Assembly: GCA_013822735.1 (NCBI GenBank)
Contig: PNKZ01000013.1
Span: 1-64,000 of the forward strand
Source: Pirellula sp.
GTDB taxonomy: Bacteria; Planctomycetota; Planctomycetia; Pirellulales; PNKZ01
Direction of reading: 5' to 3'
Length of the DNA: 64,000 bases
Positions 49,044 through 64,000 of this stretch are shown here, one piece after another. Each line of letters begins with the position of its first letter. The stretch's first letter is position 1. The notes beneath the pieces were generated by a model that had not been told where the DNA came from, did no database searches, and worked only from the letters and a program-made list of their open reading frames with translations. Both the position numbers and the translations under genes were made by a program.

Positions 49044-51035
49044 TTACTTCACAACTTCGTCGGCGGTTTGAATGAAACTCTCCGGCAACTTGAGCCCGCA
49101 AGCCGCGGCGGCGGCGGGATTCACCAACAATCGATTCTTCTGCGCTTGATGCAGAGGAATCTTGAACGGCGCCTCCCCTCGAATGACGCGCGCCGCCAAT
49201 TGTCCGGCATCGAGCGCCATATCGTAATAGTCGCGCGAGAGCACGACGGCGGCGCCTTGCGGCGCAATTGCGCCAAGGAAGCCGAATACGGGTACCTTCG
49301 CTCGTTGCGCAGCCTTAGCAATGCTCGGAAAGCTCGACCCGGCCAGATTGGAGTTCGACAAGCAAACCAAGTCGATCCCTTGGCCGCACAACGAATCCGC
49401 GGCGTCGGGCACGTCGGACGGAGAGTTGATCGGCAACGACACCAACTCGTATCCCGCTTTCGCTGCGGCTTTTACCAGCAGTTCATAGGAATAGGCCGAG
49501 TTCGTCTCCGCCGGAGCGTACAGCGTTCCAAGCTTGCGCGCCTGGGGCATCAGCCGGCGAATGATCGGCATCATCGCGTCGACATCGTTAGCGCCGTAAG
49601 CACCGGTGAGTTGCGGAAGGTGCACTTCGTCGCTCGTGGCGACACCGGCCAAAAACGGATTAGCGACCATCGTGAACACCAAAGGCGTATCCTTCGCACG
49701 GCGCGTCGTCGCTTGCAAGGCTTGCGTCGAAATCGTCACCAGCAAGTCGACGTGCCGCGAAAGCGCCGAATCGACGAGCGTGTTGAGCGTCGCCATATCT
49801 CCTTGCGCATTGGAAAACTGAATCTGAAAGTCGGCCCCTTCGACGAGCCCGGCCTTCTTCAGGCCGTCGACCAATCCGCGCTGCGAGTCTTCGATATCGA
49901 GCGTATTCACATAGCCGAGAACCTGAATGTTCCAAAGCTTCTTGGCCGGCGACATCGAGGCGCGCGAAGCGCTCGCAGCGGGGGCACGATCGTGTTGCCC
50001 TTGGGCGTCGAACACGGTGTCGGCCTTGGCTAGGAGTTCGGCCGGAATCTTCCAAGGGTCGCGCAGGCCCGACAATACGGTTTGGTTCAACAGCAGCTTT
50101 GGAGGAACAGACAGCTTCACCGGGATCTGTGCGATGCTCTCGCCCGCCAAGGCACGCGCCGCCAGTTGGCCGGTTTCCCGACCGACTTCGTAGTAGTTGG
50201 CGCCGAGATCGAACAACGTTCCTTTTGCCGCGTTGCCGGGAATGCAAGTGACCACGGGAATACGCGCCTGCTTGGCCGCACGCACGACGACGTCGACGGC
50301 GGCCAGGACCGTGACGTCGCCCCCGATCCACAGGGCCTCGACCTCGCGCCCCACTAAGGACGCCACGGCCTCTTTCACGGCGGCCGTGCTCTCGGCATTC
50401 GCTTCCAGCAGTTCAACCTTCAGGTCAAGGCAAGCATCGCGAGCCAGGCGTGTATTGATCTCCGAATTGACCTCGGCCGGATTCCAAACGATCCCGACGC
50501 GTGCGAGGCCCGGAAAGATCTCCTTCGCCATTCGCAACGATTGGGCGACGGGCTGCATCGTGCCGAGTCCCGTCATGTAGGGCGGATGATCGAGCGGCCC
50601 GGCGCCGATTCCCACGCCCGACTGCCGCGGATCGGTCACCATGCCGAACACGTGGGGCACCTGTCGCTGCTTGTTGGCGTTCGCGACCGCCTGCAGACAA
50701 GGGGTGCTGAGCGTGACGACCAAGTCGTAGGCGCCCCCGGTCAGCTCTTGCGCCATTGCGTTGACGGTCGCCGTGTCCCCCTCGGCGTTAAACCGCTTGA
50801 TCGATAGATTGTGATCTTCGGCAAAGCCGTGCTCGCGGAGGCCGTCAATCACTCCCCGAGCGCCATCTTCCATGATCGGCTGCGAAGCCATCTGCAGGAC
50901 GGCGACGCGAAATATCCTGCCTTCGTTATTGGTCGTCGAAGACGTGCGCCGCGGCGGATCCGACAGCAAGAGAATTGCCGCCGCCACAACGATCAGCGTC
51001 ACTCCCAAGGAGAGTCGTTTCGCAGTATGCCACAT
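49044..51035 (-). CDS. ABC importer substrate-binding protein, tandem COG2984/PF04392 fusion
   Basis: 663 aa from the ATG at 51035; a TTG at 51071 is possible but less likely. N-terminal helix as membrane anchor or signal. Two homologous binding domains follow, about 40-330 and 370-663. Each has the same landmarks: a RVAVLQM or IQVLGYV start, DGLREHGF / DGLKKAGL, GDTATVNA / GDMATLNT, DLVVTLSTPCLQA / DLLVTISTQALQA, and YYEVGRETGQLAARAL / YYDMALDAGQLAARVI. Single-domain versions are the norm. First gene of the importer operon; cognate solute unknown. Confidence 0.9.
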   Translation of the reverse strand: MWHTAKRLSLGVTLIVVAAAILLLSDPPRRTSSTTNNEGRIFRVAVLQMASQPIMEDGARGVIDGLREHGFAEDHNLSIKRFNAEGDTATVNAMAQELTGGAYDLVVTLSTPCLQAVANANKQRQVPHVFGMVTDPRQSGVGIGAGPLDHPPYMTGLGTMQPVAQSLRMAKEIFPGLARVGIVWNPAEVNSEINTRLARDACLDLKVELLEANAESTAAVKEAVASLVGREVEALWIGGDVTVLAAVDVVVRAAKQARIPVVTCIPGNAAKGTLFDLGANYYEVGRETGQLAARALAGESIAQIPVKLSVPPKLLLNQTVLSGLRDPWKIPAELLAKADTVFDAQGQHDRAPAASASRASMSPAKKLWNIQVLGYVNTLDIEDSQRGLVDGLKKAGLVEGADFQIQFSNAQGDMATLNTLVDSALSRHVDLLVTISTQALQATTRRAKDTPLVFTMVANPFLAGVATSDEVHLPQLTGAYGANDVDAMMPIIRRLMPQARKLGTLYAPAETNSAYSYELLVKAAAKAGYELVSLPINSPSDVPDAADSLCGQGIDLVCLSNSNLAGSSFPSIAKAAQRAKVPVFGFLGAIAPQGAAVVLSRDYYDMALDAGQLAARVIRGEAPFKIPLHQAQKNRLLVNPAAAAACGLKLPESFIQTADEVVK

Positions 51036-51161
51036 AGCTCGCAGTCTCAGTCGGAGTGCCAAGGCGCTCAACTGTAAACTGTTCGCGTCCGCGCGAAAAG
51101 GGTTGCCTTGGACGAGCGTAACGGCTCGGCCGATAAACGGCGGCGAACGCGAACTCCCACG

Positions 51162-51722
51162 CTAAATGCGTTCGACTTCGTAGTCGCCGAGTTCGACCGA
51201 TGCCCCTTGCTGCAAGAAGCGAACGGCTACCAGCAAGCGCGACACGCCCCGCCGCGAAATCACGATTCCTTCCAGTTCGCGAAACGGCCCGGTACGAATG
51301 CGGACCGGCGTGCCGGCTTCGAGCTTTGCTTCGAGCGTCACCGCTGCGCCTCCGGCGATGAGGCTGCGCAGGTTGCGCAGATCGTGCCACAATTCGCCGC
51401 CGTCCGGCACTTCGATACAGCGGCTGACGCAGTTCGTGGTCAGGGCCGAGCGGCGATGCTCGTCGTCGCCGTACATGAAGACGTAACCGGAGAACAGCGG
51501 CGCGTGCGAGACCCTTTCGCGCCCCGAAGGGGAGCGTGAGCGTTTGGTGACGACCGGGCCGTAGTGGGCGATTCCTAACGTACGGAGCCGACGCATGAAC
51601 TGCTTCTCTTGCCGGGCGCGCAAGTAGAACGTCCACCAACAACGCGACGCTTCCTGGCCGAGTTTCGGCGATTCCAGCAGGTCGGCCGGAAAGAGGTCGG
51701 GTTCGTAATCTAAAATGGGCAT
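51162..51722 (-). CDS. Specialised NusG-family transcription elongation factor
   Basis: 186 aa from the ATG at 51722; the frame runs far upstream but without protein sense. The NGN domain spans ~28-110 (WWTFYLRARQEKQFMRRL, PLFSGYVFMYG). A KOW domain follows (VRIRTGPFRELEGIV). Housekeeping NusG is usually beside secE and rplK, which are absent here. This is therefore a NusG paralog of the RfaH/UpxY/LoaP kind, which attach to RNA polymerase and help it read long operons, often for polysaccharides. Its target here is unknown. Confidence 0.82.
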   Translation of the reverse strand: MPILDYEPDLFPADLLESPKLGQEASRCWWTFYLRARQEKQFMRRLRTLGIAHYGPVVTKRSRSPSGRERVSHAPLFSGYVFMYGDDEHRRSALTTNCVSRCIEVPDGGELWHDLRNLRSLIAGGAAVTLEAKLEAGTPVRIRTGPFRELEGIVISRRGVSRLLVAVRFLQQGASVELGDYEVERI

Positions 51723-51892
51723 CGGATCGGCGGTCAAGAAGTCAAGAATTTGCGAGGACGAACAAGCGTCATCGATCGGTGAATTATACCTCGCCAGGGT
51801 ATCTCGGAACCGCGCATACGCGACGGCAAGCCGATTTTTCCGGCTAGTAGAGAATTGCCGCACGTGTGAAACCGCGGCGACACCAACGAAAA

Positions 51893-51920
51893 GAGCCCCG
51901 CAACTTTCGTTACAGGGCTC
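51893..51920 (-). terminator. Intrinsic terminator after the BON-domain gene
   Basis: Read on the - strand: a 12-bp stem with two G-U pairs and a GAAA tetraloop, followed at once by TTTTC. It lies 34 nt past the BON gene stop, and is one of the best terminators in the window. Confidence 0.8.
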
Positions 51921-51954
51921 GGCAGATAACAAGACGTGCAGGGCAGGGAGGCTG

Positions 51955-52170
51955 TTAGCCCCAATGCACTTGCAGGTGATTTTCAATCTCTTCCACGCCG
52001 TCGATCTTGCGCAACGTTTCTTGGGCCATTTGCTTCTGATAATAAGAAGCGACCGTCCCTCGCAGAATGATCCTTCCTTGGCGAGCTTCCAGCCGCAATT
52101 GCTTCCGAGCCAAGTGCGGGCTCCGTTCCAGCGCCGTGCGAGCACGATCAACAAGCTGGGCATCCACCAT
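51955..52170 (-). CDS. BON-domain protein
   Basis: 71 aa from the ATG at 52170, which has GGAAGG 8 nt upstream; the open frame to 52254 is a shadow. The protein is a single BON domain: a helix with VDRARTALERSPHL, then LRLEARQGRIILRGTV and a KIDGVEEIENHLQV end, matching the OsmY/BON repeat. BON domains bind phospholipid or glycan surfaces. There is no signal peptide, so it may be cytoplasmic. Function in the cell unknown. A strong terminator follows. Confidence 0.84.
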   Translation of the reverse strand: MVDAQLVDRARTALERSPHLARKQLRLEARQGRIILRGTVASYYQKQMAQETLRKIDGVEEIENHLQVHWG

Positions 52171-52385
52171 AAGCCAAACCTTCCAATAGCAGGAGGGAGA
52201 GGAAGGAACATGGGAACCGAGCAGCGCCCGCGCGTCGGCGACTCGCCGCGGCACAACAAGGCCCCTTGATATCTACACCGCAATTAGCCGATAGGACGGT
52301 CAGTTTGCGGTATGCGCAGCGCGACTTCGGGAACCACGCAGACGTGAATTCCGAAGATGCCGGTAATGACGAGCGCGGCAAGTTT

Positions 52386-54023
52386 TTAGCCCGCGCTCGT
52401 GCCCAAGAGCCATGCCGGCAAATACCCGGCGGCGGGCAGTTCGATAACCTTGACGCTGATGATAGCCGGATTGTCGGCGACTTCCTTGAGCGCCTCGGCG
52501 CTCGGACGATTGTCGAGGTTCAAGATCCCGACGGCTTCGCCTCCCGGTTCTTCGCGGCCGACGGTCATCTGGGCGATATTCACGCCGTGCTTACCGAACA
52601 CGGTGCCGACCTTGCCGATTATGCCCGGCACGTCCTTGTGCTTGAATACGAGCATGATGCCGTCGAGGTACGACTCCAGGCGGAAATCACCCAATTGCAC
52701 GAGCCGCGCCATGCCGTGCCCCAACACCGTGGCGGCAACCTTATGCGTTTGGTCTTCGGTCGTAAGTTCCGCGACGATGACGGAGCTAAAAGCCCCCATA
52801 TCGGTGCGGCTCTGCTCGACGAGTTCGATGCCCCGTTCTTTCAGCAGGATATCGGCGTTTACGATGTTCGCTTGGTTGTCCATCGCGTGTTCGAGCAACC
52901 CCGCTGCGAAGGCCGACGTAATGAGCTTCGTTTCTTGCCCAGCGACTTCGCCCCGGTAAGTGAGCTTGCAACCCTTGGCCGGCTTTTCGGCAAGTTGCGC
53001 GAGCATCACGCCGAGCCGGTAACCGAGATTTAGGTAGCCGCGCACGGCGTCGAGCTTTGCCGGATCAATCGTCGACATGTTTACGGCGCAACGAATGGCG
53101 CCAGTCGACAGATAATCGGTCAGCAATTGGCACCCCTCGACGGCGACCTGCGTTTGTGCCTCTTCGGTGCTTGCCCCGAGGTGCGGCGTGCACAAGACGC
53201 CGGGCATGCCGAATAGCGGGTGTTGCGTGCAGGGCTCCGTCGCAAAGACATCCAGTGCGACGCCCGCGATTTGCCCGCTCTTGAGCCCTTCGACCAAGGC
53301 ATCTTCGTCGTAGATCCCGCCGCGAGCGCAGTTAATGAGCCGCACCCCCTTCTTAAGAATCGCAAGTTCTTTTTTGCCGACGAGGCCTTTGGTTTCAGGC
53401 GTCAGCGGCGTATGCACGGTGACGTAATCGCAATGCGGCAGCATCTCGGGAACGGTGGCATAGAGTTCGATGCCGAGTTGCGTGGCCCGTTCTTTGGTAA
53501 GGAAAGGATCATAGCCCAAGACGCGCATTTCCATCGCTCGGGCACGCGCGGCGACGGTCAGGCCGATACGTCCGAGGCCGACGACGCCGATCGTCTTCCC
53601 GGCCAATTGCGCACCCATGTACTTGTTGCGATCCCACTTCCCTTCGATAAGACTTTGATAGGCCGGGGCCACGTTGCGCGACAGGGCGAGCATCAAGGCG
53701 ATGGCGTGCTCGGCCGTGCTGATGGTGTTGCCGGCCGGAGTATTCATGACGACGATGCCGAGCCGCTTGGCGGCGATCGTATCGATGTTGTCGGTGCCGA
53801 CGCCCGCACGGACGATCGCCTTGAGCCGCTTGTTCCCTTCTAATGCCTCGGCCGTAATTTTCACGCCGCTGCGAAGGATGGCGCCGTCGAATTCGTTCAG
53901 CGCTTCGCGGAGCTTCGCCACGTCTTTCAACCCGGTGCGCACCTCAAACTGAATGCCCGGGGCATTCTTCAGGAGCGTGAGACCTTCTTCGGCGATCGTG
54001 TCGAGAACGATGATGCGGGGCAT
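52386..54023 (-). CDS. serA: D-3-phosphoglycerate dehydrogenase
   Basis: 545 aa from the ATG at 54023 (MPRIIVLDTIAEEG); the frame runs 57 codons further without homology. It makes 3-phosphohydroxypyruvate, the first step of serine synthesis. NAD site: VGLGRIGLTVAARA with the GxGxxG turn. Active-site residues: INCARGGIYDE (Arg), the following acidic residue, and PHLGAS (His). After the catalytic domain come the intervening allosteric substrate-binding domain and a C-terminal ACT domain (VPGIIGKVGTVFGKHGVNIAQMT), so this is the long type I form. ACT implies feedback control by serine. Confidence 0.95.
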   Translation of the reverse strand: MPRIIVLDTIAEEGLTLLKNAPGIQFEVRTGLKDVAKLREALNEFDGAILRSGVKITAEALEGNKRLKAIVRAGVGTDNIDTIAAKRLGIVVMNTPAGNTISTAEHAIALMLALSRNVAPAYQSLIEGKWDRNKYMGAQLAGKTIGVVGLGRIGLTVAARARAMEMRVLGYDPFLTKERATQLGIELYATVPEMLPHCDYVTVHTPLTPETKGLVGKKELAILKKGVRLINCARGGIYDEDALVEGLKSGQIAGVALDVFATEPCTQHPLFGMPGVLCTPHLGASTEEAQTQVAVEGCQLLTDYLSTGAIRCAVNMSTIDPAKLDAVRGYLNLGYRLGVMLAQLAEKPAKGCKLTYRGEVAGQETKLITSAFAAGLLEHAMDNQANIVNADILLKERGIELVEQSRTDMGAFSSVIVAELTTEDQTHKVAATVLGHGMARLVQLGDFRLESYLDGIMLVFKHKDVPGIIGKVGTVFGKHGVNIAQMTVGREEPGGEAVGILNLDNRPSAEALKEVADNPAIISVKVIELPAAGYLPAWLLGTSAG

Positions 54024-54236
54024 GGCGGCGACTTCGGTTGCTAGAGGTTTCCGGCGGAACAGAACGACAATCGGCCGCCTGGGAGAAACCCGAAGGATAG
54101 GGTTCGCGGGAAAAAGTTTCAAGGACGTTGCCGACGCGGAAAAACGCGGAATTCCCGTCCGAAGTATGGCGGAGACGCTTAGCCGGGGACGCAATTTCCC
54201 GAATGGGGACGATTTGCGAAAGATGCCGCCGACACG

Positions 54237-54992
54237 CTAGCGAATCGTGTTGGGGGGCGCAACTACGGTGCGGGTACCGCCCGGAGGCGTGCCTTGTCCG
54301 GCCGCATTCACGGCCGTTTGCAGCGAGGCAACGCGCGAAGCCAGTTCCGGTTGGAACTGGTTCTTGTAGAGCGAACGTTGGTAGTTCGCCAAGGCTTGCG
54401 CCGCGTTCCCCTCACTCTCTTGGATGCGCCCCAGCGCCGCGAGGGCGCGTGGTTCGTAGGCATCAATCGTGAGGGCCTGTTGCAAATAGTCCTTGGCCCC
54501 TTGGCGATCTCCGAATTCTTCACGGAGCCGAGCAAGTTCGATTTTTGCGCCGGGGTTCGTCGGATTCTGCGCGTACCAGCCTTCCAACAGCCGCTGAGCC
54601 TTGTCCGGCTGATTCTTATCAACCAGCAACACGGCCAGGGAGCGGTAACATTCTTGATGGTTCGGGTTGTAGTCGAGGCACTTGTTATAAAGCACTTCGG
54701 CCTGATCGAGCTCGGTCGAACTACGATTCAGCTTGCCGACTTGATAGTAGGCCGATGCCAGGTTGTAGTAAGCGTCGGCGTTCGTCGGATCCTTTTTCAG
54801 GGCTTCCTGAAAATACGGCGCCGACTGCTGATACTGGCCCGTCTGGAAAAGTGCGACGCCCTGAGCGTTCTGCCCGCGCGCCGTGTATTGGCAACCCGCG
54901 AAGGCGACGACCAGAAGCAGCGCACTCCAACGCACTGACGCTCGCGCAGGGCGAGCGACGTGGACATGTGCGGCGGTATCAAATGGTTTCAC
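54237..54992 (-). CDS. TPR lipoprotein
   Basis: 251 aa. Signal peptide ending VVAFAGC, a good lipobox, with the mature start at about residue 34. TPR units follow, for example APYFQEALKKDPTNADAYYNLASAYYQVG and AKDYLQQALTIDAYEPRALAALG. It ends in a Pro/Gly/Thr-rich tail. Probably a lipid-anchored scaffold in the periplasm. Partner not known. It lies 213 nt upstream of serA on the same strand. Confidence 0.84.
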   Translation of the reverse strand: MKPFDTAAHVHVARPARASVRWSALLLVVAFAGCQYTARGQNAQGVALFQTGQYQQSAPYFQEALKKDPTNADAYYNLASAYYQVGKLNRSSTELDQAEVLYNKCLDYNPNHQECYRSLAVLLVDKNQPDKAQRLLEGWYAQNPTNPGAKIELARLREEFGDRQGAKDYLQQALTIDAYEPRALAALGRIQESEGNAAQALANYQRSLYKNQFQPELASRVASLQTAVNAAGQGTPPGGTRTVVAPPNTIR

Positions 54993-55148
54993 GGACCGTC
55001 AGCCCGAGAAGTGCACGGGATTGCAGGGCGCGCATCGCGGCCCTAAAAGGCGGCGGGATAGTACCGGCCGTGCAGATTCGTCGCAAGCTCAATGCGAGTA
55101 GCCGCAAGCGTAGCAGCGGTCCGCTTACGAGGGAGTAACAAAGAAAAC

Positions 55149-55180
55149 AGCCGCGGGAACCCAAGTAGGCTCCCACGGCT
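55149..55180 (-). terminator. Intrinsic terminator after the small charged protein gene
   Basis: Read on the - strand: AGCCGTGGGA, a 12-nt loop, TCCCGCGGCT, then GTTTTCTTTG. A 10-bp stem with one mismatch and a T-run, 71 nt past the stop of the gene at 55252-55623. Confidence 0.7.
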
Positions 55181-55251
55181 GAACTTTTCGGCGGAGGCGT
55201 TGCCGGCAACTCACGCCGGCATGCCCATGAATCGCGAATGGTCTTGGCTCG

Positions 55252-55623
55252 TTATTGGGCGGCGGCGTCCGAAGCCGACACGTCCGCGGCTTGCTCCGGG
55301 TTCAAGCTCACGGGGGCGGACAGGGCCTTGATGTATCCGAGGTCGCGAATCACTTCGAGGATCTCGCTGCAGGTCGGGAACATGCGGCCGTTCTTCCGCT
55401 TGTATTGGTCTAAGGCGCTCATGAATTCGACTTCGGCGTCGGTGTAATCCCGTTCGCAAGTCGTCGGATCGATTTGACGGCGGCGGCTTACCTTCTCGCG
55501 ACGCGGACCGGTGCGGCGCTCGACATCGACGGGCATGGAAGCCTTGCGGCGATCATCAGACTTACGGCGATCGTTACCACGGCGTTCCATCGTCAGCTGA
55601 GCGTCTTCGATTTTCTTGGCCAC
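55252..55623 (-). CDS. Small charged conserved hypothetical protein
   Basis: 123 aa. The first half is very basic with repeated ERR/DRR pairs (ERRGNDRRKSDDRRK, VERRTGPRREKVSRRR). The second half is a folded-looking helical segment (DAEVEFMSALDQYKRKNGRMFP, EILEVIRDLGYIK) ending in an Ala-rich tail. That folded part resembles a small helix-turn-helix-like module, with no sure family. The basic half could bind nucleic acid. It has its own terminator, so it is probably a single-gene unit. Confidence 0.75.
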   Translation of the reverse strand: MAKKIEDAQLTMERRGNDRRKSDDRRKASMPVDVERRTGPRREKVSRRRQIDPTTCERDYTDAEVEFMSALDQYKRKNGRMFPTCSEILEVIRDLGYIKALSAPVSLNPEQAADVSASDAAAQ

Positions 55624-55915
55624 GTGAAAGGTCCTCGTTTTAAGGATTCCACCGCATGGGGAAGAGCGGCGTTGAGAAAATATACACGCTAGTTAAGAAC
55701 TGGCGGTTCCGTAGAGATTTATTTTCAGGCAATCTGTAACGACGTGCAATCGGGCGTGATTGCGACAGATTAACGCCGCTTGCCAACTCCATGACGGTGG
55801 TAACGGTTGTAGCGGCCGGCCGTCCCGTGAGACTTTTACGCCGGGCCGGTGGCGATCCGTCGCTACTCGAATAGGCAAAGACCATGCGCGCCGGCCGGCG
55901 TTTAAGAAAGCTGCA

Positions 55916-57802
55916 TTAGCTCAATAAATCGAGATAGGGATTCAGCCCTAAAGTGCGCGCCGATTCGACGCGACGATCTTCCGACAAGCACAACTGCTTG
56001 CGTAGTTGAAAGCGGCGCCGCTCCACAAATTGCTGAGCGCGGGAAAAGAACCTCTCCCAGCGCTGCGGGAGTCGCTTGCCTTCAGCGGCATGTCGCTTGA
56101 GCAAGGCCTCGTAACGTCGGATGCCCAGCGCCTCTTTCAGGAGCTCGTCTTCCAACGATAGAAAGGTCTGATAACTGCCGGGATCCCCCTGCCGTGCGCC
56201 GCGCCCGACTAACTGCCGATCGATGCGCGCCGCTTCGTGCAGTTCGGTAAGAATCACATGCAATCCGCCCAACTCTGCAACGCCTGCGCCGAGCTTGATA
56301 TCGGTTCCGCGCCCCGCCATATTCGTCGCCACCGTGACCCGCCCGCGAATGCCTGCTTCTGCGACGATCGCGGCCTCGCGAGCGATCTCGCGAGCATTGA
56401 GGACGACGTGGTTCACGCCCGCTTCCTGCAGATACCGGGATACCGTTTCCGAGGCCCCAATTGATCGCGTACCGATGAGTACCGGCCGCCCGGCTTCCGA
56501 GAGCGCGGCGACATCGATTGCGAGGGCGCGCCACTTAGCGTCGGCCCGCGTATATACCTGCGTGGGCAAGCGGCGACGTTGCGACGGGCGATGCGTCGGC
56601 ACGACGAACGTCGGCATCTTGTAAATGGAGGCGAATTCGCGAGCCGACGTAGCGGCCGTGCCGGTCATACCCGCCAAATGCTTAAAACGCCGGAAGAAGT
56701 CTTGTACGGTCACGCGCGCGTCGGTACCGCCGCCGTCGCGAATCGTCACCCCTTCTTGCGCTTCCACGGCTTGGTGCAAACCTTTGCTCCACTTGCGGCC
56801 GTCGGCGATGCGCCCGGTGAACTCGTCGACGATCAGCACCTCATCGTCCTTTACCACGTAGTGCACGCCGGGGCGAAAGTTCCGACGGGCCAAGAGCGCC
56901 CGCTCGACGTCTTCATACAGATGGTTCCAACCGAGCGCCCCTAATCCCGCCGGTTGAGGCAGTTCGCGCACGAGCTTCCGCCCGGCGGTCGTGAGTTGAA
57001 TCTGTCTGGTCTCTTCGTCGTAGCCGTAATGTTCGGCGAGTTGGAACTGTTCCGCGTAAGCCGCGGCCCAACGAAATCGGGCCGCAGGCGACGTGCTGAG
57101 TTTGCGCGGCGGGGCGCTGATGATCAGCGGCGTTCCGGCGTCGTCGAGCAGAACCTGATCCGCCTCGTCGACGAGCATCGAAAACGGCGATCGCTGAACC
57201 GTGCCGGGGCTCTGCAGCGCCGCTTCTTCACCGACTTCCGCCGCGTGCATCTGGTCGCGCAGGAAGTCGAAGCCAAATTCCTTACCGGTGCCGTACGTTA
57301 CGTCGCTATGGTATGCCGAGCGGCGACGGGCGGGGGGACTCGACGCAGTAATCACGCCGACTGAAATGCCGAGCAACGCAAACGCCGGGCGCAGCCAGGC
57401 AGAGTCGCGCTCGGCAAGATAATCATTGCTCGTCGCCAGCCACGCACCTTCGCCGCGCAGTCCGAAGTAGTAAAGCGGTAGTCCGGCCGTAAGGGTTTTG
57501 CCTTCGCCCGTCTGCATCTCGACGACGCATCGCTCGCACAACGCGGCGGCGGCCACCAATTGCACGTCGTACGGACGGAGGCCGACGGTTCGACGACAGG
57601 CCTCGCTCATTAGCGCAAAGGCTTCACAAACCAGACGAGAATCGACGGAATCGTCGTACATCTGCGCACGCAGCGCGACGCTCAGACGTCTCAATTCGGA
57701 TTCGCTCACAGACTGCAGCGCGGCTTCGCGGGCGCGAACGGCCGCCACCATCCGCCGATGGCGTACGCGGCGCAGCCACTGGGAAAGCCTCGACCATACC
57801 AT
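55916..57802 (-). CDS. SecA-like preprotein translocase ATPase, C-terminally shortened
   Basis: 628 aa against ~850-950 for housekeeping SecA. Motor motifs are kept: MQTGEGKT at 96-103 (Walker A), DEAD at 212-215, ATNMAGRGTDIKLG and GRGARQGDPGS, with a preprotein cross-linking region between. The long C-terminal helical scaffold and the zinc-binding tail (CxCxxxxxxCH) are missing. It should hydrolyse ATP and push polypeptide, but may need a different partner than SecB or lipids. Last gene of the - strand operon with the M50-HlyD chimera, HlyD adaptor and GAF-HlyD protein; only 12 nt separate it from the chimera. Probably a dedicated SecA paralog. Confidence 0.88.
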   Translation of the reverse strand: MVWSRLSQWLRRVRHRRMVAAVRAREAALQSVSESELRRLSVALRAQMYDDSVDSRLVCEAFALMSEACRRTVGLRPYDVQLVAAAALCERCVVEMQTGEGKTLTAGLPLYYFGLRGEGAWLATSNDYLAERDSAWLRPAFALLGISVGVITASSPPARRRSAYHSDVTYGTGKEFGFDFLRDQMHAAEVGEEAALQSPGTVQRSPFSMLVDEADQVLLDDAGTPLIISAPPRKLSTSPAARFRWAAAYAEQFQLAEHYGYDEETRQIQLTTAGRKLVRELPQPAGLGALGWNHLYEDVERALLARRNFRPGVHYVVKDDEVLIVDEFTGRIADGRKWSKGLHQAVEAQEGVTIRDGGGTDARVTVQDFFRRFKHLAGMTGTAATSAREFASIYKMPTFVVPTHRPSQRRRLPTQVYTRADAKWRALAIDVAALSEAGRPVLIGTRSIGASETVSRYLQEAGVNHVVLNAREIAREAAIVAEAGIRGRVTVATNMAGRGTDIKLGAGVAELGGLHVILTELHEAARIDRQLVGRGARQGDPGSYQTFLSLEDELLKEALGIRRYEALLKRHAAEGKRLPQRWERFFSRAQQFVERRRFQLRKQLCLSEDRRVESARTLGLNPYLDLLS

Positions 57803-57814
57803 GCGGCGAACCGT

Positions 57815-60073
57815 TTACAGATGGAAGTGGAACGTTCGCGCCGCCCAGCGACCGACCCGCGAGGCGAGCGTTGCCGGCGCCAAATCAATCCTCGCCGTAC
57901 CTCGCCACCCGACTCGAAATTGCCCCTTCTCATCCGTGAGCCGCACCCGCACCGAATACGCGGTCGAAACAGGCCGTTCGCTCTGACCAGACCCGGGCTG
58001 CGTAGCCAGTTCGCCGCCGACCTTGTTCGAAAGTCGCTGCGGCGACTCGGCCAACTCCCCGACGGAAATCTCGTCGATGCGTCCTTGGAGCGGAAGATCG
58101 CGGGCCGAATCGAGCAGCACGTCCACATGATCGCCGACGTGAACAAACTCGACGTCTTCCTGATCGATAACGATCCAAGCGTCCCATGCACGCGGATCGG
58201 CCACTTCCCCAATGAGCGTGCCGGGCTCCAATGTCGAACCGATATTATCGGCATCCAACGGCCGGCCCGACCAATTCGGCAATTCGTCGCCGGACGGCGG
58301 TTTCGGAACGTTGAAAGGGGGATAGAGCACCCCGTCACGCGACGCGCGCAGCGTAAGTCGTTGCCGCTCTCTCTCTTTCTCTTTCAGCCGCGTCTCCACG
58401 GATGCGAGCAACTGCTCGGTCTGGGGAATAATCGCCGCCGCCGTGGAACTTTGAAATTGTTCGAGCCGCAGCGAATCGAGCCGGGCACGGTGGCGATCGC
58501 GTTCCGACGCGAGTTCTTCCACGGCAAGTTCCAAATCCGGACTATTCAGGCGAAGCAGCAAGTCGCCGGCGTGAACTTCTTGACCGAAACGCACTGGGGC
58601 CTCGGCCACCACGCCGCGCACCTCGACGAACACCCGCTCGGGTCGATACGGCTGCAACTCCAACGGACCGACGACGCGATGCGGAAGGGGCGCGAAGCAG
58701 AATACGCCGATAAGCGACGCCAAAACTACCGACGCCGCAGCGGCGCGTCCGAGGCGAAGATCGCGGCGGCGGCCGGGTACGTTCATAAAGGAAAAAAACC
58801 GACGGATAGGCGGTGCGATGAGCGACACGACCGCCGCCAGACCTAAGAGCCGTGCGACATTCTCCAGCTTGTAGGGCCGCGCCAACTCGATGAAGAGCAT
58901 CACGATAGCGCAGGTCACCGCCACGCGGTACGCGGTCGACGCCACGGCATACGCCGCATACCAACCTCGGTGACGCCGCGGCAGAAAAGGGTCTCCCTCG
59001 ACGTAATTCTTGGCGAAGAATCGCAAGAAGCCCGCACGCAGTACGCTCGCCGAGCGCTCCGCCAAGTTCGGTGTTTCGACGACGTCGCAGAGGATGTAGT
59101 AGCCGTCATAACGCATCAGCGGATTGCCGTTGAACATCAACGTGCTCACGGAACAAAGCGCCGTGACGCCGAGGCAGATCTGATTCAAGAGCCCCGGCTC
59201 GGTATACCACCAGAGATACATGGCGGCGGATGCGAGCAGCAATTCCACGTAAATGCCCGCCGCTCCGACCGCCGCACGATGCCACTTGTTCGGAAACCGG
59301 TACGCGTCGCTGACGTTGCAATACAGGCAGGGCGTAAACACCAAGAACATCACGCCCAACTCATGGCAGCGGCCGCCGAAGTGCAGGCAAGTCAAGCCGT
59401 GGCCGAACTCATGCAGCACCTTCACGACGCCCAACACTCCCATGAGGATCAGGATATTCGTCGGCGTAAAGTAAGCTTGAAAGTCCGGTAGCCGGGCGGC
59501 AAGCGTGCGCCACTGAACCGCGGCCAGCCCGACCGCCGAAAGAATAAACAAACAGCCGCAGACCAATGCCGTGCGCGACATGAAAGGGCGCACGAACGGA
59601 TACATCACCTGAAACAACGTTTCCGGATTGATGCCGCGGAATCGCACGGCGAGCGGACTCAGCCAGCGTTTGCGAAACTCTTCGCGACGACGCTTCTCGC
59701 TCCGCTCGTGGAGCGACTCTCCCTGACCTGCGCGTTCCGCCAGCAATAAGCCGGAGCTATGCAGCATATTCACGAAGCGAGCCGCTTCTTCAGGATGCAA
59801 ACGCTGCGGCGCGAAACGGGCCTCATAGAAGTTCACAAGGTCGTCAAGACTATGCTCCCCGTCGAGCAATTCGAACAGGGCGTACTCGTCGTCGCGCAGT
59901 CGTGTGAACTTAAGCGACAACGGATCGTGAATCACCCAATACCGTTCGGCGCCGAAGCGCTGGGACGCGATCTGCAGATCGGGCCGCCGACGAAAGGTAA
60001 TAGGGCGATCGGAAGTGCGCATCGAAACGGAGTCGTGAAACGGCGAGGTCGGAGAAACAACGGAGGGCGGCAC
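57815..60073 (-). CDS. PqqD-like / M50 site-2 peptidase / HlyD chimera
   Basis: 752 aa from a GTG; an ATG 51 nt later is an alternative start. Order of parts: ~30-115 a PqqD-like winged helix (YWVIHDPLSLKFTRLRDDEY, LLDGEHSLDDLV), as used to hold peptides in RiPP systems; ~155-465 an M50 membrane peptidase with HEFGH at 221-225 and NGNPLMRYDGYY at 315-326; ~480-750 a biotinyl-lipoyl/HlyD-like adaptor (VVAEAPVRFGQEVHAGDLLLRL) with a coiled coil. It may cut or gate an exported protein in the membrane and pass it to an outer channel. 21 nt from the HlyD gene upstream. Confidence 0.86.
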   Translation of the reverse strand: MPPSVVSPTSPFHDSVSMRTSDRPITFRRRPDLQIASQRFGAERYWVIHDPLSLKFTRLRDDEYALFELLDGEHSLDDLVNFYEARFAPQRLHPEEAARFVNMLHSSGLLLAERAGQGESLHERSEKRRREEFRKRWLSPLAVRFRGINPETLFQVMYPFVRPFMSRTALVCGCLFILSAVGLAAVQWRTLAARLPDFQAYFTPTNILILMGVLGVVKVLHEFGHGLTCLHFGGRCHELGVMFLVFTPCLYCNVSDAYRFPNKWHRAAVGAAGIYVELLLASAAMYLWWYTEPGLLNQICLGVTALCSVSTLMFNGNPLMRYDGYYILCDVVETPNLAERSASVLRAGFLRFFAKNYVEGDPFLPRRHRGWYAAYAVASTAYRVAVTCAIVMLFIELARPYKLENVARLLGLAAVVSLIAPPIRRFFSFMNVPGRRRDLRLGRAAAASVVLASLIGVFCFAPLPHRVVGPLELQPYRPERVFVEVRGVVAEAPVRFGQEVHAGDLLLRLNSPDLELAVEELASERDRHRARLDSLRLEQFQSSTAAAIIPQTEQLLASVETRLKEKERERQRLTLRASRDGVLYPPFNVPKPPSGDELPNWSGRPLDADNIGSTLEPGTLIGEVADPRAWDAWIVIDQEDVEFVHVGDHVDVLLDSARDLPLQGRIDEISVGELAESPQRLSNKVGGELATQPGSGQSERPVSTAYSVRVRLTDEKGQFRVGWRGTARIDLAPATLASRVGRWAARTFHFHL

Positions 60074-60094
60074 GCTGGCAGGTTGAGAGCGCCG

Positions 60095-61021
60095 CTAGCG
60101 GACAATCGTCATTTCGGCCTGCATGCCCGGACGCAGCAGCCATTGGCCGTGTTCTTGACGATTCTCTACTTCGGCCCAAATGCGATACTGGCTGCCGGCA
60201 TCGATCAACGGGCTCACAAAGGTGACCACTCCGTCGAAGACAAAACGCTTGGCGTCGGCGAGTTCGACGACAACCTTCACCGGCTTGCCGAACACGTCTC
60301 CCGGCAACATGTCGCGAACCTTGATGAACCCGTCAACACGCAGACGATCGACGCGCACGACGCGCACGACCGGCGCACCGGACTCGACCCACTCGCCGGG
60401 TCGCGCGAAAATTTCGGCAACCTCGCCGGCCAAGGGAGCTTCGACGCGGCGCAGTCGAACGTCCGCCGCGGCCAGAGAAGCCTTCGCATCGGTCGTGCCG
60501 AGCTCGACTTCCAGAACTTCACGGTTGAAGCGGCTCAGGTCGACGCGAAGCGCCGCCTGCTTGGTTGCCAGCTCCAATTTGAGCACTTCGATATCTGAGA
60601 CGCTGTTGGCAAATTTCCGATTCGCTTCCACGGCCGCCTCGTGCTCGGCGACCGAAACGTCGAGCGTGGCCTTGGCAAACCTTTCTTCCAACGGCGAATC
60701 GGCCTTTTTATGCGCAGCGGCCTTTTCCGAAGAGGCCGCCTGCAACTGAAGATTCGATTCCTCATCATCGATTTGGGCCAGCAAATCGCCGGCGACGACG
60801 CGAGACCCCTCCTTGGCCTGCAACTTGACGAGCCGACCGGTTCTCAAGGCGGGGACTTGGATGTCGTCGATCGCCGTAACGAGGCAGTGCTGCAGCAGTA
60901 CTCCGGTCGTCGTCTTGTCGGCGGCTGCGCTCGGCTCGGCGGCCCCAACGGGCGCGCGACCGCAGCACAACAACACGCCGAGAACAACTCCGACGAGACG
61001 ACCTAAGAAAGAAGATTTCAT
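60095..61021 (-). CDS. HlyD/RND-type periplasmic adaptor
   Basis: 308 aa. Signal peptide (FLGRLVGVVLGVLLCC...APVGAAEP). The adaptor follows: a lipoyl half (VPALRTGRLVKLQAKEGSRVVAGDLLAQID), a hairpin coiled coil at ~85-165, the second lipoyl half (VEAPLAGEVAEIFARPGEWVESGAPVV), and a beta-barrel domain. No membrane permease or TolC gene lies next to it, so its inner-membrane partner is probably the M50 chimera or the GAF-HlyD protein. 16 nt after the GAF-HlyD gene. Confidence 0.88.
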   Translation of the reverse strand: MKSSFLGRLVGVVLGVLLCCGRAPVGAAEPSAAADKTTTGVLLQHCLVTAIDDIQVPALRTGRLVKLQAKEGSRVVAGDLLAQIDDEESNLQLQAASSEKAAAHKKADSPLEERFAKATLDVSVAEHEAAVEANRKFANSVSDIEVLKLELATKQAALRVDLSRFNREVLEVELGTTDAKASLAAADVRLRRVEAPLAGEVAEIFARPGEWVESGAPVVRVVRVDRLRVDGFIKVRDMLPGDVFGKPVKVVVELADAKRFVFDGVVTFVSPLIDAGSQYRIWAEVENRQEHGQWLLRPGMQAEMTIVR

Positions 61022-61037
61022 GGGGTGCGAACGTTTC

Positions 61038-63062
61038 TCAAAACCAACGGAACAGAACCTTGGCGCGGAAGAAATCCGTTATGTCGCGAGACCAAACATA
61101 GCCGAGCGATCGGGTGCCGCATTGGATCTGTGCGGCCACTTCGGCGCCGGGGCGCCATTCTGTCGCATCTTGCGGCGAGACGGCCGCACGCACCAAAACC
61201 GTGCTTCCTTCCGTGCCGCGAAGTTCCGCCGAGTTTTGGATTTCCACCACCTCGGCGTCGTGCACCAACGCGGGATCGAGTGCAGGGCTGAAGCGCACGA
61301 CGAGCGGCGAAGAATTGTCGGCCGCCGCGCGAATCACACGACCGCTCCGATCGTCCGGCACGGCGAGTTCCAACTCCCAATCGCCTCCCACGGCCGCAAG
61401 CGTCAGCAACACCTGCCCCTGCCGCACCGGGCGATTCTCCAGCAGATGATCGGCGTTCCACGTCGTCACTTCGCCGTCGACCGGGCTAACAACCGTCAGG
61501 TGACGGCGTTTTTCCGCAAATAGTTCCGCTTGGCGAGACAACGATCGAAGTTGCTCGCGAATTTGGCTCTGTTCACTCGAGAGTCGAGCTCGTTCTTGGG
61601 GAGGCAATTCGCCCCGATCGTCCAACAGAGCGCGCTCGACGGAGATTTTCTGCTCGGCCAGCGAAGTGCGCCGGCCTTCAATATCGGCGGCTGCGATATC
61701 AAGATCGGTATTGCGCAATTCCAAGAGGGGCTGCCCCTTAACTACGCGGTCGCCGTGCTTGACGAACATCCGCCGTACGGTCCCGTCAAGCGGCGCAAAG
61801 ACGTTACGACGAGCGGCGGGCTGCAACGTTCCTCGGCAGTAGGTAGTGTCGGCAATCGGAACGAACACCAGCGCGGCAATGGCCGCGGTCAGCGCTATTC
61901 CGATCAGCGCCGTGCGCCGCCGAGTTCCCGGCTCGAGAACCAATCGGTGCGCGCGACCGAGGCGCTTCCACAACCCGTGCAGGAACAGCGACTCGTGCGT
62001 CACGGAGTTGCCGATCGCCGTCGATGCACAACGCACAACCGTCTCCAATCGACGTTGATCCGGGACCGACACTTCGGCGCCGCGGAAATATTCGGCGATG
62101 ATCGTTCCGATGATGCGCTGCACGTCGCGACCCTGGCGATCCTTCTCGACCGGCGACTTCACAGGCATGACGACGACCCGCTTGACGTCGTGTTCGTCGA
62201 CGTAGCGCTCGAGCACTTCCGTCGTCGCATCGTCGACCACATGCTCGGGGTCGGGAAACGTGAAGTCCTTTTTCTGTCGCATGGCGCGCGTGGCGAGGTC
62301 GCTGAGCGCGCGTACCACTCCCGAGCGCGAATCAACGTCCTGCTGAGCGCTCACGGCGACGACGCGCTGCCGGCGACCGCGCCGAACCAAGACCGTGAGG
62401 CGGTCGCAGCCGGTCAGTGCGCGACCGTCGTCGGCCAAAGTACGCGCCATTCGATTAAGTTCGAGATGGCGATGCACGGCGATGAACAATCGCCGCTCTT
62501 GTTCGGCGAGCGCCGCCATATCCGACAACTCGCGGCGGTCGGCCAGCAAATGGAAGCGCTCGGCAAGCACGCCGGCCTGCCCCATGAATTTGAGAATTCC
62601 CTCTTGGGCCGCGCGCGTCACTACGGGCACACGCACTTCGATGACGCCGCGTAAAGCACCGGCCACGGTCACCGGATGCCAAAATGCCGAACCGGTCGGC
62701 TGCGCGCCGCCGTCTGGCAGGCTGGCGACGTCGTTCAGCTGGGTCACGAGCGTGGCGACGGATTGGCCGCCTTTAGCCACGTCGTTCAACAGCTGTTCGC
62801 GGCGAGCTTGGGTGTCGGCGTCCTCCGTCGGGCGAAGTGCCCCGAGGGCTAGAGCGGGCTCCCATCGTCCGGAAGGTTCCAGGCACCAGACGCGGGCCGT
62901 ATCGCCCCCCACCGCTTTGGAAACGCGCACCAGCCATTCGCCGTAGAAGCGGCGCACATCAATCGGGCTTTCCGCCAAAGCGCGGAGGCTTTCCAGCCAT
63001 TCGCGTAAGCGATCTTGTCTTTCGGCGTTTTCCGGAACCGCATGCAAGGAGGAAAGTGTCAT
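61038..63062 (-). CDS. GAF-domain sensor fused to HlyD-like adaptor
   Basis: 674 aa from the ATG at 63062. The N-terminal ~390 residues are cytoplasmic with one or two GAF-like domains (VWCLEPSGRWEPAL; a second at ~210-370 with LTGCDRLTVLVRRGRRQRVVAVSA and VKRVVVMPVKSP). A membrane helix at ~400-420 (ALIGIALTAAIAALVFVP) leads to a periplasmic HlyD part: APLDGTVRRMFVKHGDRVVKGQPLLELRN, a coiled coil at ~480-560, then VVSPVDGEVTTWN. The layout suggests that a cytoplasmic signal is passed to an export adaptor. First gene of the four-gene operon. Confidence 0.86.
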   Translation of the reverse strand: MTLSSLHAVPENAERQDRLREWLESLRALAESPIDVRRFYGEWLVRVSKAVGGDTARVWCLEPSGRWEPALALGALRPTEDADTQARREQLLNDVAKGGQSVATLVTQLNDVASLPDGGAQPTGSAFWHPVTVAGALRGVIEVRVPVVTRAAQEGILKFMGQAGVLAERFHLLADRRELSDMAALAEQERRLFIAVHRHLELNRMARTLADDGRALTGCDRLTVLVRRGRRQRVVAVSAQQDVDSRSGVVRALSDLATRAMRQKKDFTFPDPEHVVDDATTEVLERYVDEHDVKRVVVMPVKSPVEKDRQGRDVQRIIGTIIAEYFRGAEVSVPDQRRLETVVRCASTAIGNSVTHESLFLHGLWKRLGRAHRLVLEPGTRRRTALIGIALTAAIAALVFVPIADTTYCRGTLQPAARRNVFAPLDGTVRRMFVKHGDRVVKGQPLLELRNTDLDIAAADIEGRRTSLAEQKISVERALLDDRGELPPQERARLSSEQSQIREQLRSLSRQAELFAEKRRHLTVVSPVDGEVTTWNADHLLENRPVRQGQVLLTLAAVGGDWELELAVPDDRSGRVIRAAADNSSPLVVRFSPALDPALVHDAEVVEIQNSAELRGTEGSTVLVRAAVSPQDATEWRPGAEVAAQIQCGTRSLGYVWSRDITDFFRAKVLFRWF

Positions 63063-63413
63063 AGACGTTCTCGCTCGGGTCACCCACGGGCGAGCCCAGC
63101 GGCTCGCATACTCAATGCACTGTCCATGCTCAAACCAAGCTCAAATATACCACCCGACCTGGTTGCCCCCAAAGGAATAGCCGCTTGGTCGGAGGAAATT
63201 CCGGCCGCCACCGAAGCGGAACCCCCTACCAGAAGCCGCACGGTGAGCAAATCATGCCGTCCGGACGCCTAAGCGTTTAAACGGACCGCGAGGCCGAAAG
63301 CTACAGGCAAACGGCCCGTGAACTCAGAAGTTCACGGGCCGTCACAAGATAATTCTTACGGCCCTGGTCCCCCTCTCAACGAAGAACGAACCGAGGGTGC
63401 TGAAGAATTCCGT
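63063..63413. other. Intergenic region upstream of the export operon
   Basis: 351 nt between the repeat-protein stop and the GAF-HlyD start. Holds the perfect hairpin at 63311-63342. The rest probably holds the promoter of the export operon; no clear -35/-10 could be named. No gene seen. Confidence 0.45.
63311..63342 (-). terminator. Strong hairpin after the repeat-protein gene
   Basis: A perfect 14-bp inverted repeat (ACGGCCCGTGAACT, loop CAGA, AGTTCACGGGCCGT), 71 nt beyond the repeat-protein stop on the - strand. It is followed there by TTTGCCTGTAG, a short T-run. It likely ends the upstream transcript before the export operon begins. Confidence 0.65.
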
Positions 63414-64000
63414 TTAGATCAATGTGATGCTGGTCAGCACCGGTGCGGCGAGGGCCGCTCCGGAGTTGCCGTTCGTGAGCGCATCCAGCACGTCGGTTCC
63501 TCCTTCACCGTTGATCTTGACCAACGTGTTAAACGTCGAGGTGGCCGCCACGACGAAATCGTCGCCCGCGCCCAACTTCACGTCCACCGTATCCGCCTCA
63601 AAAGTCGTGAGGTTCACAAGGTCGGTCCCCTTACCGGAGACGAACGTCAACTTCCCGAACGTCGAGCCGGTGCTGTTAACGGTATTGTCACCGTCGCCGA
63701 CTTTTACATTCGCCGTGGTCGCCAACAAACTGTTCAACACGAGAATGTCGCGGCCGGAACCGGTCTCGATAATGAGGCTCGTCAACGCCGTCGTACCGGC
63801 TACTTTCGCGACGGTGTCGAGGTTGATGTAGTTATCACCATTGCCGAGTTTCAAGGTCAGCTTATCCGCGGTGACCCCGGTAGCGGTAACACCGTCGTTG
63901 CCCTTGCCGGACGTGACCGAAATGTCCTTCGCGACATTAACGGTATCCAAGCTCAAGTTGCCGTTGTATTCGCCAAGATCCACGGACAGACTTCCCGCGC
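63414..64000 (-). CDS. GxGxD-repeat protein, 3' end (partial)
   Basis: The frame is open to the window edge; ~195 residues are seen. They form about seven imperfect ~21-residue units, each with hydrophobic strand residues, then G-x-G-x-D/N and another strand: TSGKGNDGV, LGNGDNYI, TGSGRDIL, VGDGDNTV, VSGKGTDLV, LGAGDDFVV, NGEGGTDVL. This resembles RTX-like or beta-roll/beta-helix calcium-binding repeats. It ends in a short non-repeat tail (ALAAPVLTSITLI). Planctomycetes make very large surface proteins of this kind. As the neighbour of the export operon it is a candidate cargo; a separate terminator lies between them. Confidence 0.8.
   Translation of the reverse strand, partial: AGSLSVDLGEYNGNLSLDTVNVAKDISVTSGKGNDGVTATGVTADKLTLKLGNGDNYINLDTVAKVAGTTALTSLIIETGSGRDILVLNSLLATTANVKVGDGDNTVNSTGSTFGKLTFVSGKGTDLVNLTTFEADTVDVKLGAGDDFVVAATSTFNTLVKINGEGGTDVLDALTNGNSGAALAAPVLTSITLI

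Follow-up and report, generated by a model that had tools for sequence, protein, structure and literature searches.

The 64,000-nucleotide stretch of Pirellula DNA analyzed here (the window) raises the question of what function could be served by a single protein, encoded at 57815..60073 on the minus strand, in which a PqqD-like domain, an M50 peptidase and a HlyD-type adaptor appear to be joined. A first-pass annotation had proposed that such a fusion would let recognition, cleavage and export take place in one polypeptide. The evidence considered below suggests that the fusion is likely to be the subunit that receives and processes the substrates of a dedicated secretion machine, these being mostly large proteins with a LEPR tag at the N-terminus (consensus ExLExRxLL[SA]xD).

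The three-part architecture itself is confirmed. The 752-aa open reading frame opens with GTG; an in-frame ATG at 60022 (residue 18) appears to be the likelier start because the alignment of the relatives begins about there. A PqqD/RRE-like leader-peptide reader (59735..60001, minus strand as for all features of this locus; model residues 8-96) precedes a site-2-type (S2P) M50 protease and a MacA/HlyD-type periplasmic adaptor (57878..58684; model residues 447-715). The motifs HEFGH (59399..59413; model residues 204-208) and NGNPLMRYDGYY, the latter containing the Asp that provides the third zinc ligand (59105..59107; model residue 306), are both present as originally reported, so that the protein combines HExxH with a conserved downstream Asp ligand in the manner of M50 (site-2) proteases. 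In all 21 aligned relatives, which come from Planctomycetota, Alpha- and Betaproteobacteria and include some whose operons lack SecA, the two His residues and the Glu of HExxH and the Asp of NxxPxxxxD are invariant, as they are in 57 of 57 Planctomycetota sequences; this conservation agrees with the view of the first-pass annotation that the peptidase is probably active. In Pfam searches, HlyD_3 and HlyD_D23 are found in the C-terminal half, and the M50 match falls just under the cut-off (26.7 vs 27.2 bits). The Pfam PqqD domain is matched by 22 of 25 members of the fusion family (best E 1e-7), the window's own protein scoring below the cut-off (E 0.039). When compared with the PDB, a profile of the N-terminal region built from these 25 members retrieves PqqD (3g2b, E 7e-7) and the lasso-peptide RRE TfuB1 (6jx3, E 2e-4), which supports the PqqD/RRE assignment independently of any structure model. 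Beyond this locus, contigs C3, C15 and C30 of the genome each carry a further copy of the fusion.

A full-length AlphaFold2 model built with 57 sequences (pLDDT 84, pTM 0.63) is consistent with this layout. According to VIA-align, residues 8-96 match TfuB1 and TbiB1, both solved with leader peptide (Z 10.5-10.6), and residues 447-715 match MacA (Z 17.1, rmsd 3.6). Stretches within residues 134-381 match RseP and SpoIVFB with Z 9.8-10.1, and since helical folds with Z below approximately 13 can merely share a common arrangement, the M50 assignment leans on the motifs as well. Foldseek retrieved only adaptors among the best 50 matches of the full model; the N-terminal domain was therefore modelled separately (AlphaFold2, pLDDT 86). 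This model matches leader-bound RREs best (6jx3_B, Z 10.1; 5v1u and 5v1v, Z 10.0), with rmsd of 2.6-2.9 over 83-86 residues, and a Foldseek search leaves the top order unchanged (best E 1.5e-3). In RRE structures, the peptide is taken up by the third strand of the sheet, and all three strands are present in the model, together with the winged-helix bundle. Hence, in both model and profile, the N-terminus has the PqqD-like fold that had been predicted. Its sequence profile and fold are common to TfuB1, TbiB1 and PqqD, but here the domain shares a polypeptide with a membrane protease and an adaptor, and its probable clients are large proteins. Hydropathy analysis delineates six separate segments, to which the model adds a long helix (278-298), yielding about seven in all; this arrangement would leave the RRE domain on the cytosolic side and the adaptor on the periplasmic side.

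The fusion gene lies in a cluster transcribed from one strand in an order that is conserved in the relatives: a GAF-HlyD protein (61038..63083; 681 aa, one hydrophobic segment, with a weak GAF match below the Pfam cut-off), a HlyD/RND-type adaptor with a hydrophobic N-terminus detected by domain and hydropathy scans (60095..61021; 308 aa), the RRE-M50-HlyD fusion, and a short SecA paralogue (55916..57802; 628 aa). No Rfam family matched at gathering thresholds in 50000-64000. The same set of SecA_DEAD, M50-HlyD, HlyD and GAF-HlyD genes, all four of which are found together here, has been reported as a type I secretion-related (T1SS-like) module, and that report proposes SecA as the ATPase, considers that M50 could form a pore, and calls the broader role of the module "completely unknown" (Kamneva, Poudel and Ward, 2015; PMC4452313). 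The operon is also recorded there for Methylobacterium extorquens AM1. The main text of the report contains none of the words LEPR, giant, cargo and PqqD, and neither a substrate nor the PqqD domain is named in it; the former is proposed and the latter found here.

The short SecA retains the Walker A motif TGEGKT and the VDEAD motif; Pfam detects nothing in it that corresponds to the C-terminal region of SecA, the part that works with SecY. All 15 short SecAs that were checked (628-699 aa) keep TGEGKT and [VI]DE[AV]D. The window SecA scores below the cut-offs of the accessory SecA2 models (TIGR03714, 491 of the required 930 bits; TIGR04397, 555 of 1085; TIGR04221, 434 of 725), and an arginine-finger pattern proved uninformative, matching 4 of 16 SecAs with the housekeeping SecA not among them. 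The genome encodes one housekeeping SecA and two further short copies, one directly 3' of the C30 fusion gene and the other, the third short SecA, on contig C29 (L162:7911-9893), where no M50-HlyD gene occurs in the surrounding 19 kb. A short SecA was also seen in 18 of 40 further Planctomycetota neighbourhoods. In a plasmid search with SecA, the matches were swamped by housekeeping SecA. The module shares with type I secretion (HlyB-HlyD-TolC) the HlyD-type adaptors, TolC in some operons, and giant repeat proteins as probable clients. In contrast to type I systems, in which an ABC exporter accompanies the adaptor, a domain scan of the four module genes and the adjacent repeat protein detected no ABC exporter, and none is annotated within the plasmid operons described below; a SecA-like ATPase is usually present instead. 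Type I secretion signals are typically C-terminal, whereas the tag shared by the probable clients of this module is N-terminal.

This tag corresponds to the LEPR-XLL domain (NCBIfam NF012209, LEPR-8K, 24 positions), which is found at the N-termini of very large proteins. Next to the window module, 330 bp upstream of the GAF-HlyD gene, is the gene for a 562-aa repeat protein that starts with MRNTKKSSFKRLNVESLEDRLNLAGN. Only its C-terminal part is within the window (63414..64000); the gene extends to contig position 65102, which puts the LEPR-like N-terminus outside. This protein was not among the NF012209 matches up to E 10 (cut-off 17 bits) and scores 26.2 bits with a wider, 35-row LEPR model, but is itself a training row of that model; a protein from another genome outside the training set (G168) starts in much the same way (KRLNVERLEERVLLAGNV). 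Beside the C15 copy of the fusion, a protein starts with ...IRRLEERRVLSVD, and a frame of approximately 4,550 aa containing MDALEQRVVLNAD starts divergently from the C30 module; no LEPR protein was seen in the 20 kb read around the C3 copy. Apart from these proteins, the genome has a second class of giants: PEP-CTERM matches occur in very long frames on contigs C11, C13 and C1 (e.g., 12,608, 8,905, 7,330 and 4,817 aa).

The association is clearest on plasmids. A tblastn search with the fusion yielded 79 plasmid records, of which 14 were opened; the N-terminus of the large protein could be read in 13, the start of the protein in the fourteenth (Cupriavidus CH34) being outside the stretch. In all 13, a large protein of the same cluster has LEPRxLL or LExRx[ML]F at its N-terminus, in the form ExLEPRxLLSAD or a variant thereof. 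Ten are from Alphaproteobacteria and carry LEPRxLL (e.g., VEPIEPRILLSADP, MEALEPRFLLSADP and FESLEPRLLLSADF; that of Pseudohalocynthiibacter, ETYEPRLLLSAD, was found by eye), and three carry a sister tag, namely ALEPRFMFDAA in Azospirillum, ALEARLMFDAA in Eleftheria and ALESRQLFDGA in E. coli. Alisedimentitalea and M382 count as one event because their motif stretches are identical; in M382, the tagged frame stops after 3,472 aa and a different large frame adjoins the module, and in Azospirillum another large ORF separates the tagged ORF from the module. Shuffling of the first 120 residues reproduces the motif pattern in 0.02-0.5% of trials (11 proteins scored). Four of the plasmid proteins are annotated as LEPR-XLL. 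In Rhizobium and Alisedimentitalea, the annotated start falls downstream of the in-frame motif (giant genes near 315687 in NZ_CP140822.1 and near 183300 in NZ_CP123586.1), and the tag is accordingly missing from these two deposited proteins. The likely clients range from 562 aa (window) to 12,918 aa (Pseudosulfitobacter); no useful family emerged when the first two of these putative substrates were scanned against NCBIfam. Of the 13 operons, 9 include a SecA-like ORF, and the stretches of Thalassospira, Azospirillum, Eleftheria and E. coli have none; the ATPase is therefore not universal.

Conceivably, the module could serve the LEPR proteins as a sorting, release or anchoring protease after their export by another route such as Sec. 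M50 proteases typically act on membrane-inserted substrates, the module includes no obvious pore-forming translocase, and its SecA gives no match for the C-terminal region, all of which would be compatible with such a role. Nevertheless, this alternative is unlikely: 11 substrates show no Sec-type hydrophobic segment in 19-residue windows starting in the first 80 positions (mean hydropathy below 1.3, compared to more than 1.6 for the adaptor's own signal-like N-terminus with the same script), a conduit is suggested by the three adaptors and, in some operons, TolC, and the predicted topology has the RRE facing the cytosol.

The second alternative, namely that this is a system for maturation and export of RiPP-type peptides in which the RRE binds a small precursor, the M50 protease removes the leader and the adaptor exports the product, with the large proteins being neighbours for some other reason, is quite unlikely. 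The best NCBIfam match of the fusion is indeed the daptide protease (NF041824, E 4e-53), which has the M50 core in common with it and whose model covers residues 41-399, PqqD part included; moreover, RiPP pathways are where RRE folds are best known, and the related M50 protein EpeP is thought to cleave and export a peptide (PMC10885120). Yet three fusion copies score only 181, 154 and 187 bits against the daptide cut-off of 300 bits, and 36, 31 and 44 bits against the 225-bit cut-off of the YydH/LiaK model (NF058609), neither model matching over the HlyD half. The comparison with YydH suggested in the first-pass annotation thus reveals a relationship to YydH/EpeP at the level of model scores, with the fusion nonetheless far under the curated cut-off. 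Furthermore, no RiPP-modifying enzyme is present among the annotations of the plasmid operons or the domains of the window operon, in contrast to the LEPR protein found in every plasmid case that was read. On the strength of the model cut-offs and the neighbourhood, the reading of the fusion as a RiPP protease was rejected. The N-terminal domain thus retains the fold of a peptide holder, as initially proposed, but its likely clients are mostly large LEPR proteins rather than small precursor peptides.

Among 195 Planctomycetota genomes (at least 90% complete), the fusion profile separates module carriers cleanly, with 57 genomes matched at E below 1e-80 and the strongest match elsewhere, of the adaptor type, at 4.7e-22. 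NF012209 matches were found in 26 of the 57 module genomes and in 1 of the 138 others (Fisher p 1.8e-15), and the association persists when labels are permuted within families (p 0.001; 168 genomes, the 27 without a listed family being set aside), as exemplified by family f25 (2/2 vs 0/9 among the genomes listed). The wider model matches 43/57 vs 14/138 genomes (p 4.5e-19) or, upon removal of the ten genomes that supplied rows, 33/47 vs 14/138 (p 8e-15), although some of the Planctomycetota loci behind its rows may come from species closely related to genomes in the set of 195; a column-permuted decoy of this model matched 1 genome of 195. Two or more LEPR matches occur in 29/57 module genomes and 1/138 others, and 13 of the 57 show no match by either model. 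When the NF012209 limit is relaxed to E 10, 7 of 14 control genomes are matched, one of them over the cut-off, compared to none of the 14 at 0.02. The possibility that any tagged or giant protein would show such an association was considered and rejected, given that PEP-CTERM shows at most a weak link to the module (30/57 vs 52/138, p 0.058) and LEPR is not linked to C39 exporters (LEPR vs C39, 10/75 vs 17/120, p 1).

The position of the matches follows the same division. In 20 module genomes, chosen (not at random) from outside the training set and represented by one match each (the first listed in 19 cases, another in G114), the match lies at the start of the frame in all 20, within 160 residues of the upstream stop in 19 and, in G101, 28 residues after the first start codon. 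Inspection of eight matches in six of the 14 module-less genomes with a match showed that seven, among them the sole NF012209 exception (G087), are internal, 229-553 residues into the frame, and look like chance or antisense readings. The eighth, in G094, is a real LEPR protein with the tag at its N-terminus, encoded on a 6-kb contig. Two of ten fetched stretches (G014 and G171) covered no LEPR match and were left out. A LEPR-like stretch identical or nearly identical to ARRLAVEALEDRAVLAVDRQDA is found deep in frames of G087:C11 (L204) and G040:C10 (L205), where it is probably antisense to a conserved gene; such stretches are a source of false matches for short LEPR models.

Most of the LEPR genes of Planctomycetota are scattered rather than located beside the module, with a LEPR neighbour seen in 9 of 80 loci (many of them short) and in 9 of 40 further neighbourhoods; chance-like matches obtained with a loose pattern (L187, L193) are not counted. 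Still, among the other ORFs that lie no more than 5 kb from the fusion gene, the motif is present in 7 of 290 (0.5 expected by shuffling), compared to 2 of 218 farther away (0.45 expected), in a count of ORFs of at least 150 aa that leaves out three own-genome loci and those lacking an M50-HlyD ORF. In 10 of 12 rows found with a pattern that ignores this position, a Glu occurs two residues before LE, which argues for the motif being real. Taken together, synteny and co-occurrence make for a strong link between the module and the LEPR proteins as its partners and probable substrates. That shared ancestry and large genomes alone bring together LEPR proteins and an unrelated module is highly improbable: both are common in the same Planctomycetota families and most of the LEPR genes in this phylum are away from the module, but the same-cluster arrangement recurs in distant Proteobacteria, the association holds within families, and PEP-CTERM and C39 exporters show little or none of it.

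For the proposed secretion machine, the data presented here support the three domains and the operon, the conservation of the zinc site, and LEPR proteins as partners. Its mode of action can be outlined as follows. By analogy with the binding of RiPP leaders by RRE domains, the cytosolic RRE would bind the LEPR tag as an added beta strand. The tag would then be passed to the membrane M50 site, where its front end is probably trimmed, a step suggested by the invariant zinc site. The short SecA-like ATPase, where present, would drive the unfolded chain outward, and the three HlyD-type adaptors, including the C-terminal half of the fusion, could together build a conduit that crosses the periplasm to a TolC-type channel. 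A combination of recognition, cleavage and export fits, as first suggested, but "in one polypeptide" is too strong: the C-terminal half serves as an adaptor in the periplasm rather than as a translocase, and partner proteins (the SecA-like ATPase, GAF-HlyD, the third HlyD protein and, in some operons, TolC) would supply the energy and the remainder of the conduit. Counting against the secretion-machine interpretation are the scattered LEPR genes, the LEPR-less module genomes, G094, the operons without SecA, the failure of NF012209 to detect the LEPR protein of the window, and the control matches at the loose limit.

The operon has been known since 2015 and the LEPR-XLL domain is defined by NCBI; the new element is the probable substrate that joins the two. 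In the earlier literature searched, LEPR-XLL serves as a label on a protein; here it is tied to a machine. Kamneva et al. was the one relevant article on the components of the module, and no publication was found that joins the module with LEPR-XLL or gives either a function, in a search that was thin on subscription papers and bioRxiv. The module of 2015 had no known cargo and the tag no assigned machinery in the literature searched, and joining them makes both testable. If correct, this connection would add an N-terminal, non-Sec export signal and would extend the RRE fold from peptide natural products to the secretion of large proteins. More broadly, with about an even chance of being right, this could be a distinct secretion pathway of diderm bacteria, in which a non-hydrophobic N-terminal LEPR tag is read by the RRE-protease-adaptor and a SecA-derived ATPase, rather than an ABC exporter, drives giant proteins out, with a SecA-less branch (the E. 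coli, Azospirillum and Eleftheria plasmids) that reads the sister tag LExRx[ML]FD[AG]A.

Several features of the plasmid clusters deserve a separate mention. The SecA-less form on the IncF-type E. coli plasmid NZ_CP081687.1 (L150, 2010-21761) consists of a 13.4-kb gene for an Ig-like protein, which starts with the E. coli sister tag given above, followed by TolC, two adaptors and RRE-M50-HlyD; the fusion protein is matched by 18 Escherichia records. In 6 of 9 annotated alphaproteobacterial clusters (L101, L103, L105, L106, L116 and L154), a DUF3467 gene of about 100 codons is located directly 3' of the giant gene, and its product is possibly a further component. A SapC-family gene is annotated in or beside the clusters of Pseudosulfitobacter, Alisedimentitalea and M382 (L104, L109 and L153), and in Ensifer (L107, 22208-23029) an unannotated ORF of SapC-like size lies between the fusion and SecA genes, in the same place as in L104.
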